Assembly: GCA_012959275.1 (NCBI GenBank)
Contig: DUDM01000057.1
Location: 1 to 50,382 of the forward strand
Direction: 5' to 3'
DNA length: 50,382 bases
Origin: Candidatus Poseidoniales archaeon
GTDB taxonomy: Archaea; Thermoplasmatota; Poseidoniia; Poseidoniales; Poseidoniaceae
Shown here: in pieces, positions 42,631 to 45,969 of the stretch
How the letters are laid out: each line of letters begins with the position of its first letter
Position numbering within the stretch: position 1 is the stretch's first letter
Notes under the pieces: generated by a model
The model's input: the letters and a program-made list of their open reading frames with translations, nothing else
Told to the model about the DNA's origin: nothing
The model's database searches: none
Translations under genes and position numbers: made by a program

Positions 42631-43167
42631 TCATCCTTCGCAAGCCGAATCCGACCACTTAACAGCAGTCATATCAGCATGAAAACCAGTCATCCTACGC
42701 AAATTCTCACCCAAATCGCTCTTCCCAAGACGCGATTGACTATGCAAGGTCAACTCCACCTGACCCCCATTACATTCCATCGAAATAAAAACATCATCAG
42801 CAAAAAACCAAAATTCTGTATGAACTACACCGTGAATAACAATCTTCTCCTCTCCTTCAACAGAAACAACAGAACTAAGAAATCCCTCATCAAACCAATT
42901 TTCTACAACAATCTGAGCCTCGTCTAAAGTTGCATTGAACTTAAGAGCAGCCAAATCTCCAGAAGCATATGATGTCCCATCATGAGCAAGTCGAAAACAA
43001 TTCATGCTATCTTCATCACATTCAGTGGGCATAGACGAAGTTGCACTCATCGAATTCATCAATTGAATCAGTAAAATGAGAACAATCCACCCGGCAATAA
43101 TCGCCGCGGGCCATTTCACATAAGGAGGTGAAGATTTCCATTTTCCTAACATGCTATCTTCAGACAT
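42631..43167 (-). CDS. Membrane-anchored DUF1499 domain protein
   Basis: A 178-residue protein from ATG 43167, placed a few bases after the phosphoglycerate mutase stop; ATG 43194 would overlap that gene by 23 bases. One membrane helix is near residues 22-44 (AAIIAGWIVLILLIQLM). The rest fits DUF1499: a Cys-containing start (NCFRLAH), a middle VVSVEGEEKIVIH-type strand, FFADDVFISME, and the family hallmark SQSRLGKSDLGENLRRM. DUF1499 has no established function. Confidence 0.75.
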   Translation of the reverse strand: MSEDSMLGKWKSSPPYVKWPAAIIAGWIVLILLIQLMNSMSATSSMPTECDEDSMNCFRLAHDGTSYASGDLAALKFNATLDEAQIVVENWFDEGFLSSVVSVEGEEKIVIHGVVHTEFWFFADDVFISMECNGGQVELTLHSQSRLGKSDLGENLRRMTGFHADMTAVKWSDSACEG

Positions 43168-43171
43168 TTCA

Positions 43172-43867
43172 TCACTTTCTCTGAAGTTTCCCATCTACCA
43201 TTTCATAGATGATTGGCTGGCCTGTTGGTACTTCCAATGAAAGGACCTCTTCTCTCGATAAGCCATCTAAATGCATGATCATACTGCGAAGACTATTACC
43301 ATGGGCAGTAATAAAAATACAATTTCCATCACTTAAACTTGGCATGATGACCTCCTGAAGATATGGGATTGTACGAGCAGCAGTCAACTCCAAACTCTCT
43401 CCTTCTGGAGGAGGAGTATCATAGGAGCGGCGCCAAATATGGATTTGCTCATCTCCCCATTTTGCTCGGCTCTCAGTTTTGTTTAAGCCTTGCAGGTTAC
43501 CATACATGCGTTCATTCAATTTCCACGAAACATAGACCGGCACAATCTCTTCAACATCGCCGCGTATTTGCGCCCAGTCATTCATTTTCTGTTGGTTTTC
43601 ATCGCCACCAGCTGAATCATATTGGAAAACAGGTGTCGCAGCACTTGAATGCTGCGCCATAACTATCATTGCAGTCATTTGAGCACGAATCAAAGTTGAG
43701 GTATGGATTTCATCAATTTGCATTTCACTGATTTCAGTACCACTTGAAATCGCCTCTTCAATTCCTTTCTTTGAAAGTGGAACATCGACCCATCCAGTGA
43801 ACAAGTCAGCGGCATTCCACATCGATTGACCGTGGCGCATTAGGATGAGGTGGACCATATCTCTCAT
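43172..43867 (-). CDS. gpmA: 2,3-bisphosphoglycerate-dependent phosphoglycerate mutase
   Basis: A 231-residue histidine phosphatase-fold enzyme that interconverts 3- and 2-phosphoglycerate. The phospho-acceptor His is in LMRHGQSMWN (H12). Next come LFTGWVDVPLSKKG, the STLIRAQMTA loop, KLNERMYGNLQGLNKTE and the second catalytic His in TAHGNSLR. All are features of the dPGM (GpmA) subgroup rather than of general phosphatases. Archaea more often use the cofactor-independent enzyme, so this looks bacterial in origin (inferred). ATG 43858 is an alternative start. It lies in a minus-strand gene run, 43 bases after the polytopic membrane protein gene. Confidence 0.9.
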   Translation of the reverse strand: MRDMVHLILMRHGQSMWNAADLFTGWVDVPLSKKGIEEAISSGTEISEMQIDEIHTSTLIRAQMTAMIVMAQHSSAATPVFQYDSAGGDENQQKMNDWAQIRGDVEEIVPVYVSWKLNERMYGNLQGLNKTESRAKWGDEQIHIWRRSYDTPPPEGESLELTAARTIPYLQEVIMPSLSDGNCIFITAHGNSLRSMIMHLDGLSREEVLSLEVPTGQPIIYEMVDGKLQRK

Positions 43868-43910: not shown

Positions 43911-44675
43911 TTATGTCACAATAGTTGGAATCAATGTCAATATTAACAGTGGCCCTGCGGACATGGCAATGTCTCTCAATAATATCATAATCAAGTTTTG
44001 ATTATACTCAGCAACAGCGGTTTCAAATTTATTCTCAATCGTTGAATCCACCTTATCAACCAAAGCAGTTGCACCACGTCGTACCGCCTCTGTGGCAATT
44101 CCTGCAACTGCTCCAATTATTCCTTTGTTGACTACTTTTCCGGCTTTTTCACCATCCATTGCTGCATCTGTGAATGACTTCACTTCTTCGTCAGGGCCGC
44201 GTCCGAACTTCATCAAACCCTTTCTCAATCCAAGAGCGAAACTAGCGCGTTTCTGTAATTTTTTAATGTCCTTTTCGAGAACACCATTCAGCATATTTCG
44301 AACCCTGAAAACCCTGAGCAAGTCGAAATATACCCACATTAAGAATGCTGCCAACAGCAAGGCCATGCCAGTGATATTGACATCAGACCAATTCTGCCAC
44401 CCCAATGGGTCGACCATCAAGCGTATGAGAATGGCTAGTAGAGGTGGTAGGCAAAATGCAAGCACTTCATTGAACAACAAAAGACCGATACCTTTGACTG
44501 GTAAATCCTTGATCTGTTTAATCGCCCAACCACTATGTGGGGCAAAGACCTTGATCACTTTAGTTAGTGGTTTACTTACCAAGATGACTCTGAAAATAAA
44601 TGGCAAGAACGCAATGTACCAAATATAAGCCTGCCAAGGACTGGCGGGCGGGAAGTCGGGTAGAATCAGTTCCAT
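43911..44675 (-). CDS. Polytopic membrane protein of unknown function
   Basis: A 254-residue protein with membrane helices near residues 16-33, 62-88, 101-121 and 228-252. Between helices 3 and 4 lies a long basic-then-amphipathic cytoplasmic segment (about 125-225). It includes the Gly/Ala-rich stretch GKVVNKGIIGAVAGIATEAV, with spacing like that in the 94-residue protein encoded at the start of the same run. I recognise no family. It follows a cassette of four small genes, with 34 bases between it and the last of them. Confidence 0.7.
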   Translation of the reverse strand: MELILPDFPPASPWQAYIWYIAFLPFIFRVILVSKPLTKVIKVFAPHSGWAIKQIKDLPVKGIGLLLFNEVLAFCLPPLLAILIRLMVDPLGWQNWSDVNITGMALLLAAFLMWVYFDLLRVFRVRNMLNGVLEKDIKKLQKRASFALGLRKGLMKFGRGPDEEVKSFTDAAMDGEKAGKVVNKGIIGAVAGIATEAVRRGATALVDKVDSTIENKFETAVAEYNQNLIMILLRDIAMSAGPLLILTLIPTIVT

Positions 44676-44709
44676 GAAGCACCCGAGAAGCGCTATTGCT
44701 CATAGGTTT

Positions 44710-44880
44710 TCACTGTAGCTCAGGATCGTCGATGAATGATGCATCGACGTCGTAGATATGGCCGACCCATGGTCCTGGAGCGGCTCGCTCGAGGCGGGCT
44801 CGCTTATCATCGACGATTGAAATCACCAAGCCTCCGAGAAGGAAACCGATGGTAAATGGTAGAATCAGACGACCTAACAT
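44710..44880 (-). CDS. Small single-pass membrane protein (56 residues)
   Basis: A 56-residue ORF, ATG 44880 to TGA 44710-44712. It starts with a hydrophobic helix (LILPFTIGFLLGGLVISIV, residues 5-23) and continues as a charged tail (DDKRARLERA) with an acidic end (DVDASFIDDPELQ). It begins 5 bases after the stop of the preceding small gene on the same strand, with no better use of that space. Position and the membrane-helix pattern shared with its neighbours argue that it is real. Confidence 0.6.
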   Translation of the reverse strand: MLGRLILPFTIGFLLGGLVISIVDDKRARLERAAPGPWVGHIYDVDASFIDDPELQ

Positions 44881-44885
44881 TAAGT

Positions 44886-45077
44886 TCACTCGGCCTTCAT
44901 TGATTTTGCTTTCAAACCATCAAATACTCGTTCTTCAACTCTGTCTAAAACCTGACAAGCTCTTCGACCATATTTTCTTCCAAGGCCGTATCCCATGCCT
45001 GCAGTTCCAGCAATTGCTAAAACCTCAACTGATGCTACGATTATCCCAAATGTGCTTCCAAATAGTGCAGGAAGCAT
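44886..45077 (-). CDS. Small single-pass membrane protein (63 residues)
   Basis: A 63-residue ORF from ATG 45077; its ATG shares one base with the preceding stop (TGATG), a classic sign of translational coupling. Residues about 8-33 form a Gly/Ala-rich membrane helix (IIVASVEVLAIAGTAGMGYG), followed by a basic amphipathic helix (RKYGRRACQVLDRVEERVF). No family is recognised. The order and overlap tie it to the small genes on each side. Confidence 0.65.
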   Translation of the reverse strand: MLPALFGSTFGIIVASVEVLAIAGTAGMGYGLGRKYGRRACQVLDRVEERVFDGLKAKSMKAE

Positions 45078-45262
45078 CACTTCTTCCCCCCGCGCTTCTT
45101 AGGTTCATCATTAACAATTGACACTTTTTGGATTGATCCATTATTCATATCTTCATCTTCTGCATATTTCTCATAGTAGTGTTTGAAACCGCTGTGTGCC
45201 ACTCCAATTACGAATGTGGCAGCCACGATTCCGACTACTCCTATCAACATCTTTCCTATCAT
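45077..45262 (-). CDS. Small single-pass membrane protein (61 residues)
   Basis: A 61-residue ORF with the strongest ribosome site in the cassette: AAGGAGG 8 bases before ATG 45262, lying inside the end of the preceding gene. Residues about 5-22 form a membrane helix (MLIGVVGIVAATFVIGVA). The tail is first acidic (YAEDEDMNN) and ends strongly basic (EPKKRGGKK). Its stop overlaps the next start as TGATG. No family is recognised. Confidence 0.7.
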   Translation of the reverse strand: MIGKMLIGVVGIVAATFVIGVAHSGFKHYYEKYAEDEDMNNGSIQKVSIVNDEPKKRGGKK

Positions 45263-45265
45263 TTT

Positions 45266-45550
45266 TCATTCCTCCTTATTTTCTTCATTTTCTTCTTCTT
45301 TACCCAGCCCAATCGCCCTAGTAACTCCACCAGCCACCGAACCCGCCACATTACCAACGGTCTCGACACCTACCTTAGTGACTTCTCCTGCAGCATTGAT
45401 AACTGCAGTTATTGCTCTTCCAGAACCAACCGCCAAATGGACAACAGTCTCTTCACCAGCGTTAACCAGTTCTTTGACAGCGGCTGTGAAATCATCAATC
45501 AGTGAACCAAGACCCTTGGCCACCTTGTCAACTGATTCTTTGCCGGACAT
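45266..45550 (-). CDS. Gly/Ala-rich amphipathic small protein (94 residues)
   Basis: A 94-residue protein with no long hydrophobic helix. An N-terminal amphipathic helix (about 5-35) is followed by a Gly/Ala/Val-rich stretch with regular small-residue spacing (AGEVTKVGVETVGNVAGSV) and a very acidic end (EEENEENKEE). The pattern suggests helix packing or membrane-surface association, like phasins or glycine-zipper proteins, but that is only a resemblance. It is the first gene of the run; its stop lies 3 bases before the next ATG. Confidence 0.65.
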   Translation of the reverse strand: MSGKESVDKVAKGLGSLIDDFTAAVKELVNAGEETVVHLAVGSGRAITAVINAAGEVTKVGVETVGNVAGSVAGGVTRAIGLGKEEENEENKEE

Positions 45551-45597
45551 GATTATCGCATGGGCCTAGAGCATATTAGGAGATGATGTTATTTTTA

Positions 45598-45612
45598 CCG
45601 GTTTTAAACACC
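45598..45612 (-). promoter_or_regulatory. Candidate TATA element for the small-protein cassette
   Basis: GTTTTAAAC at 45601-45609 is an AT-rich palindromic core about 50-55 bases before ATG 45550, in the only sizeable gap (71 bases) upstream of the minus-strand run. It fits an archaeal TATA box with a short leader. There is no experimental support. Confidence 0.3.
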
Positions 45613-45621
45613 CGCTATAAT

Positions 45622-45969
45622 CTAATCTGAAGGTAAGTAGAAAAAATGTTCAGGATAGTATCCCATATCAATTCCTAACTGTATAAATCGCCCAATATCA
45701 CCGCGCAATAATTTACCAGTTTCTGTAATATTATAATGCACTATTTGATGACCACCTCGTCCTTTTTCCCCACTGCTTATAGGCTCTAAGTACTCCTTTT
45801 GAACTAGTGAATCCAAATGGATTTTCAATTCTTTTCGCTCAACACCAACAGCTCTTTCTATGCGCATCATTCGTCTTGTAGATGATTCTGCTTTCTGCTT
45901 TCTACTGAGATATAGAAGAATTCGATAAAGGGTGGTCGACAGGTCTCGACGCTTTCGTAGTTTCTCCAT
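45622..45969 (-). CDS. Small winged-helix transcription regulator
   Basis: A 115-residue protein from ATG 45969; the upstream frame offers only a TTG. A basic N-terminal helix is followed by TLYRILLYLSRKQ, a helix-turn-helix (MRIERAVGVERKELKIHLDSL), and a wing ending in HQIVHYNITETGKLLRGD. This is the winged-helix layout common in archaeal regulators. It faces the cupin gene across an 80-base gap and lies upstream of the small-protein cassette on the same strand. It may control either; no operator palindrome stands out. Confidence 0.75.
   Translation of the reverse strand: MEKLRKRRDLSTTLYRILLYLSRKQKAESSTRRMMRIERAVGVERKELKIHLDSLVQKEYLEPISSGEKGRGGHQIVHYNITETGKLLRGDIGRFIQLGIDMGYYPEHFFYLPSD

Follow-up and report, generated by a model that had tools for sequence, protein, structure and literature searches.

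A candidate membrane-surface operon with its own putative regulator in the archaeal order Poseidoniales

The window analysed here, a stretch of 50,382 nt from contig DUDM01000057.1 of a Candidatus Poseidoniales archaeon (Marine Group II; GCA_012959275.1), contains a cassette of six genes in the order F-A-B-C-D-E, all on the minus strand. Our preferred reading, held tentatively and at a little under an even chance, is that this is one instance of an optional, self-regulated operon, F-A-B-C-(X)-E, whose products would build a membrane assembly on the cytoplasmic face and serve as a module responsive to stress or viruses. The anatomy of the cassette is well supported, and we infer its function from gene content and exchange; a membrane stress or defence role fits best. 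A limited search of the open-access literature found no description of the cassette. The Poseidoniales are the most abundant planktonic archaea of the surface ocean and are without cultured representatives (PMC6461757).

Anatomy, distribution and constraint of the cassette

All five minus-strand ORFs that an earlier note had described in this DNA (94, 61, 63, 56 and 254 residues; A to E in Table 1) are present at the sizes claimed, and its gaps of 3, -1 and 5 bases (A/B, B/C and C/D) are reproduced with ATG starts; a GTG start for C gives a 4 nt overlap with B. The strong AAGGAGG site that it pointed out lies 5' of B, and its three small proteins with one N-terminal membrane helix are B, C and D, each with a single such helix near residues 5-23. 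The five-gene cassette of that note is real as far as it goes, but a sixth gene, the putative upstream regulator F, was overlooked. Synteny and translational coupling bear out its view of the genes as one conserved membrane unit, as do purifying selection and a shared promoter with a candidate operator. The cassette has a divergent cupin gene as its 5' neighbour and a phosphoglycerate-mutase-like gene (pgm) as its 3' neighbour, and no Rfam elements were found at the locus. Beyond pgm the window encodes a DUF1499 protein (PF07386, E 3.5e-10; 42631-43194, minus strand), which stays close to pgm in many relatives.

Table 1. Positions of the cassette genes and putative control elements in the window.
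Feature	Position	Strand	Description
F	45622..45969	-	115 aa from ATG 45969; alternative TTG 46011 gives 129 aa; first cassette gene
Operator GCGGGTGTTTAAAACCGGTA	45596..45615	-	Palindromic, between F and A; proposed F site
TATA-like box TAATATG	45572..45578	-	22-28 nt 5' of A ATG; read from sequence
A	45266..45550	-	94 aa; seven predicted 11-residue repeats, acidic tail
B	45077..45262	-	61 aa; single membrane helix and charged tail; cassette profile family
C	44886..45080	-	63 aa (ATG 45077) or 64 aa (GTG 45080); overlaps B
D	44710..44889	-	56-59 aa (56-aa form 44710-44880); one membrane helix
E	43911..44675	-	254 aa; four membrane helices

Scanning roughly 85,000 species genomes yielded 46 loci. 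E lies downstream of A on the same strand in 41 of the 41 loci with enough downstream sequence, in both families of Ca. Poseidoniales, and F is present in 40 of 41 informative loci. Within the order, 39 of 293 genomes carry A, spanning 12 of 22 genera and both families; A gave a single weak match beyond the Poseidoniales and was absent from the phage records and IMG/VR viral contigs searched. F was detected in 22 of 145 relatives, every one of which carries A, and is found only together with A; it had no match in IMG/VR. E was present in 46 of 59 relatives, is confined to the class Poseidoniia among 293 genomes sampled from the phylum, and had no match among the plasmids searched. Most of the genomes are incomplete MAGs, and these absences are therefore soft.

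An automatic tally placed F-A-C-E together in 36 of 41 loci. Among the five exceptions, B' and C' replace B and C at L102 and L103 (see below); F is there at L105 and L110, hidden by the tiling of ORFs; and at L123 F is truly missing and E is interrupted by frame changes, for which reason this cassette looks decayed or misassembled. The tiling also overlooked B in L131, L140 and L141, where it is present. Two records labelled as bacterial, L102 (Deltaproteobacteria, AH-558-G13) and L114 (Opitutia), bear an archaeal cassette; since both cassettes group among those of Poseidoniales, the records are probably mislabelled or contaminated. Near-identical cassettes, with F, A, B and C identical, were seen on two contigs of the MAG NAT68 (L106 and L108), reflecting either a duplication or two strains.

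Protein-level constraint, which the earlier note had proposed as a check, is present as judged by omega from Nei-Gojobori counts between close relatives. For the closest relatives omega is 0.02-0.05 for F, 0.03-0.10 for A, 0.10 for C, 0-0.15 for D and 0.07-0.11 for E; for B it is 0.24 against L034, the nearest pair having too few changes (2 synonymous, 4 non-synonymous), and for the replacement genes B' and C' it is 0.07 and 0.23. The cassette genes are under purifying selection, and A is the most conserved part, with 61-67% identity between genera. Chance ORFs or an assembly artefact are ruled out by recurrence at the same place in many relatives together with omega. D, which the earlier note counted as a member of the cassette, is present and constrained, but by profile it occurs only in the window's genus, and one further genus has a look-alike (L113 and L115); D occupies a variable slot between C and E.

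Putative regulation and the predicted membrane proteins

Weak matches of F to MarR_2 (E 0.002-0.04, under the cut-off) suggest that it is a winged-helix regulator; a PDB profile search with F gave nothing. An inverted repeat, GGT-N5-7-ACC, is found in 41 of 44 F-A gaps, where shuffled sequences give about 1 (at most 5), and begins 2 to 20 nt past the F stop codon; a site of this kind also stands directly before F in 22 of 44 loci, with about 1 expected. A TATA-like string occurs some 27-30 nt 5' of the A ATG in nearly all relatives, consistent with a leaderless promoter for A whose TATA-like box lies downstream of the palindrome. Such a repeat precedes just one of 28 standalone E genes. The window genome has a single copy of a long form of the operator, as do 5 of 39 genomes, always 5' of A; the pattern used was fitted to the window type and is hence blind to other operator types. 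Because the palindrome lies between F and A and is followed by the TATA-like box before A, F probably controls transcription of A to E, and often of F itself, via this palindrome; we infer that F would bind it and act by activation or repression.

The amphipathic character that had been ascribed to A is strongly supported and can be refined to seven 11-residue repeats. Across residues 4-80 the hydrophobicity has a period of 11 (z 6.8; the runner-up, period 18, has z 3.0), and the angle of the hydrophobic moment is 98.5-99 degrees per residue in nine of nine members, a moment matched by none of 2000 shuffles. It is well supported by this periodicity that the seven repeats would form one 11/3 amphipathic helix; the register would suit a hendecad coiled coil as well. 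Bulky residues are scarce in the helix, an acidic tail follows it, and A is without a membrane helix. The spacing of A had also been said to be echoed in the loop of E. This likeness proved to be compositional only, with a profile comparison probability of 0.5% and differing helix angles (98.5 degrees in A, about 92 in E), and A/E homology was dismissed on the profile comparison.

C has a conserved GYGLGRKYGR core and an amphipathic tail. Of 35 homologous loci, 32 have a 4 nt overlap between the genes of B and C and the other three an overlap of 1 nt; mutual homology of B and C was dismissed. E has membrane helices at residues 16-34, 66-84, 105-123 and 228-246, with a long cytoplasmic helical segment (approximately 135-225) between helices three and four. 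The structure model of E is of low confidence (pLDDT 68), and its comparison with solved folds by Foldseek returned only non-significant hits (BAR domains, MotA, and ZorA at E 1.6). There was no credible match for A to E in Pfam, NCBIfam, PADLOC or PHROGs, and PDB profile searches of A and E gave nothing; on this lack of a match, A, B, C and E appear to be four protein families without known relatives. Matches to TOBE, GrpE and SRPRB were weak, fell below the cut-off and were dismissed as noise.

Exchange, replacement and nuclease genes

F-A-B-C is an optional insert 5' of a Poseidoniia-wide E. In family f1 the neighbourhood reads cupin-[F-A-B-C-X]-E-pgm, and f1 genomes without F-A-B-C-X have cupin-E, mostly followed by pgm. 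Family f2 has other flanks, and there E stands alone in genome G052 at the place where G100 has F-A-B-C-HNH-E. One MAG (G062) holds both versions, on a contig with cupin-E-pgm and a contig with cupin-F-A-B-C-E; the two have 172 bp in common at 97.7%, diverge 44 bp before F and differ in their E genes, and they likely derive from two related strains binned together. E is mostly a standalone gene, and as most genomes that lack F-A-B-C keep it by itself, it has another role too. A second type of cassette, with two tandem and strongly divergent E copies (E1-E2), was seen in L113, L114, L115, L124, L125, L127, L130, L135 and L143. The E tree has long branches, and no claim is based on it.

A tree of F and A rejects a single clade for genus g11 (p 3e-43) and genus g10 (p 0.004), both chosen for the monophyly test after the tree was viewed, and this rejection of genus monophyly indicates that the module has been exchanged between lineages. 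Within the window's genus, the B-C pair has been replaced as a unit. The small ORFs, whose possible absence from close relatives the earlier note had raised against its own reading, are not absent, but in two of the four cassette-bearing congeners (G002 and G004) a pair B'-C' exactly replaces B-C. B' is not detectably B, and C' is weakly C. Identity between the window and G002 is 0.39-0.58 across B-C and mostly 0.85-0.99 on both flanks. The F+A tree pairs G005 (B-C) with G002 (B'-C') and G003 (B-C) with G004 (B'-C'), so that the type of the pair disagrees with the tree. Compared with G005, the window shows a mosaic of synonymous divergence, at 0.05 for B, 0.96 for C, 0.15 for D, 0.38 for E and 0.21 for pgm.

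Eight of 41 loci carry an extra nuclease, which is HNH, HEPN-like or, in L135, both; the other 33, the window's among them, have no recognisable nuclease. The HNH protein is encoded between C and E in five loci (L118, L121, L135, L140 and L141) and has an N-terminal membrane helix ahead of a conserved HNH core, in which GYTEWHHIIS...NPGN[VI]VELCKxCH is conserved in all five proteins; matches to PF01844 are over the cut-off for L135, L118 and L140 and just under it for L121. Full-length relatives were found only in cassettes, and relatives of the HNH domain stand alone elsewhere in the order and also on viral contigs. In several Poseidoniales (L178-L184, e.g. L178 1522-2391 and L182 1501-2091), HNH genes sharing this core motif stand by themselves next to housekeeping genes such as those for ribosomal proteins and an elongation factor; these HNH genes look mobile and are possibly the source of the cassette HNH. 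Eighteen IMG/VR contigs (L189-L206) encode HNH domains that are 44-61% identical to it.

The HEPN-like protein occurs in four loci, in the C-E slot of L123 and L135 and the A-B slot of L127 and L130, and among 293 genomes the family is found only in cassettes. Its genes were mostly seen with the E1-E2 cassette type. RNxxxH is invariant in all four proteins and lies at the end of helix 100-117 in a structure model with a confident core. The motif rule of the HEPN superfamily is Rx4-6H, with a polar residue after R, at a helix end (PMC3710099), and the cassette proteins conform to Rx4-6H in both sequence and model. Their match to Pfam HEPN_RiboL-PSP (E 8.5e-4) is below the cut-off, HEPN structures top the Foldseek list for the model non-significantly, and a PDB sequence search gave no hit; based on the motif and these weak matches, we call the family HEPN-like.

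Possible functions and comparison with known systems

In our preferred reading, F, as a dedicated regulator, would act at the palindrome before the A promoter, and often before F itself. A would lie along the membrane, where it may read or stabilise disturbed lipid packing, and B, C and E would form a membrane complex and set specificity, with the variable slot (C-E or A-B) holding a membrane-anchored HNH protein, a HEPN-like RNase or, as with D, small proteins. The trigger would be an envelope perturbation, most likely virus entry; some lineages would use tethered nucleases as effectors, and in the others the membrane proteins would do the work. The conserved order, the presence of F only with A, the operator and TATA-like box, the periodicity of A and purifying selection would all favour this explanation, as would the exact replacement of B-C, the HNH and HEPN-like genes, the rejection of F+A monophyly and the occupied and empty locus in one MAG. 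Optional HNH and HEPN genes, B-C swaps within a genus, and patchiness combined with a rejection of genus monophyly are features more typical of conflict (defence) systems. Against defence stand the 33 of 41 loci without a nuclease, the housekeeping surroundings with no defence island, and the blank PADLOC result for the core; against the explanation as a whole stand the retention of E alone in most genomes and a HEPN assignment drawn from a motif and weak matches.

If true, this reading would add a membrane module of a kind not yet described, with a regulator of its own and families A, B, C and E as its basis, and a concrete candidate for how Poseidoniales protect the membrane against viruses. 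A bolder form of it, possible but on balance doubtful, would make the cassette an immune system of a new class at the archaeal membrane surface, with an A coat on disturbed membrane that F switches on, recognition by a swappable B-C pair and E, and membrane-tethered DNases or RNases as plug-in effectors of some lineages.

The operon of the phage-shock (Psp) response unites a regulator with an amphipathic protein that binds membranes and with small single-pass proteins. The main rival explanation, unlikely in our judgement, is a Psp-like homeostasis of envelope stress, in which F would sense the stress or be released, A would bind damaged membrane by its amphipathic helix, B, C and E would stabilise the bilayer or control ion leak, and the nucleases would be passengers. 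The same types of part are united in one operon in the cassette and stand in Psp order (regulator, amphipathic protein, two small single-pass proteins), most loci are without nucleases, and E is kept alone in most genomes. However, PspA, PspB and PspC gave no match in Pfam or NCBIfam, and the within-genus replacement of B-C, the exchange between genera and the recruitment of optional nucleases would be unusual for a housekeeping stress system and set the cassette apart from Psp. The envelope-stress or membrane-shaping role suggested in the earlier note may still hold, but by itself it leaves the optional nucleases, the B-C swap and the patchy exchange unexplained.

A peptide toxin/immunity system, with A, B and C membrane-active against kin, E as the immunity protein and B-C pairs as allotypes, would suit the replacement of B-C as a unit, the Gly-rich membrane segments and the polytopic E. 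We consider it improbable: the operon is without a leader peptide, processing site, protease or exporter gene, A is its most conserved part, unlike toxins, and E occurs without A-C in most genomes. Also improbable is a role at the surface of lipid bodies or vesicles, where A would form a coat like perilipin or phasin and B, C and E would anchor or shape the budding membrane; an 11/3 helix with few bulky residues is found in perilipin 4 (PMC8064757), but no lipid-storage genes lie within or adjoining the cassette, and the nucleases and exchange would be left unexplained. A selfish homing cassette, whose HNH would cut the empty allele for repair to copy the cassette in, would account for a fixed site with empty and occupied versions and for related free-standing HNH genes elsewhere in the order, but is very improbable given HNH in five of 41 loci only, a membrane helix that would keep it off most of the chromosome, a dedicated regulator and protein-level constraint on all parts.

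Among known proteins, A is most readily compared with the synucleins and perilipins, whose helices of 11-residue repeats rest on lipid surfaces (PMC5889406, PMC8064757). It resembles them in its 11-residue repeats, predicted 11/3 helix and weakly hydrophobic face, and its acidic tail resembles that of alpha-synuclein, whereas A is archaeal and operon-encoded and has no sequence relationship to them in Pfam and PDB searches. Even if the cassette served stress homeostasis only, A would be an archaeal protein on the synuclein plan (11-residue repeats and an acidic tail) in a defined operon.

For our preferred reading, two bacterial systems offer the closest parallels to the nuclease-bearing cassettes. 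Zorya II recruits an HNH nickase (ZorE) to a membrane complex with ZorA and ZorB, and like the cassette it pairs a polytopic with a single-pass membrane protein and has an HNH nuclease placed at the membrane (PMC11890865). In contrast to Zorya II, the cassette is archaeal, its HNH protein is itself membrane-anchored and found in few loci, and it has the extra protein A and a dedicated regulator; with no PADLOC match to ZorA (MotA-like), ZorB (MotB-like) or ZorE among A-E, it does not qualify as a Zorya system. SNIPE is a membrane-bound bacterial antiphage nuclease that acts on incoming DNA, and its nuclease domain, which faces the cytoplasm, lies behind an N-terminal membrane helix, as in the cassette HNH (PMC13190303). 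SNIPE is one protein with DUF4041 and GIY-YIG domains, whereas the cassette nuclease is a small HNH protein (PF01844) in a multigene operon; it shares the membrane helix but has no DUF4041 match in Pfam, and is not a SNIPE. Neither system is related to the cassette, and we would regard both as precedents for membrane-tethered antiviral nucleases.
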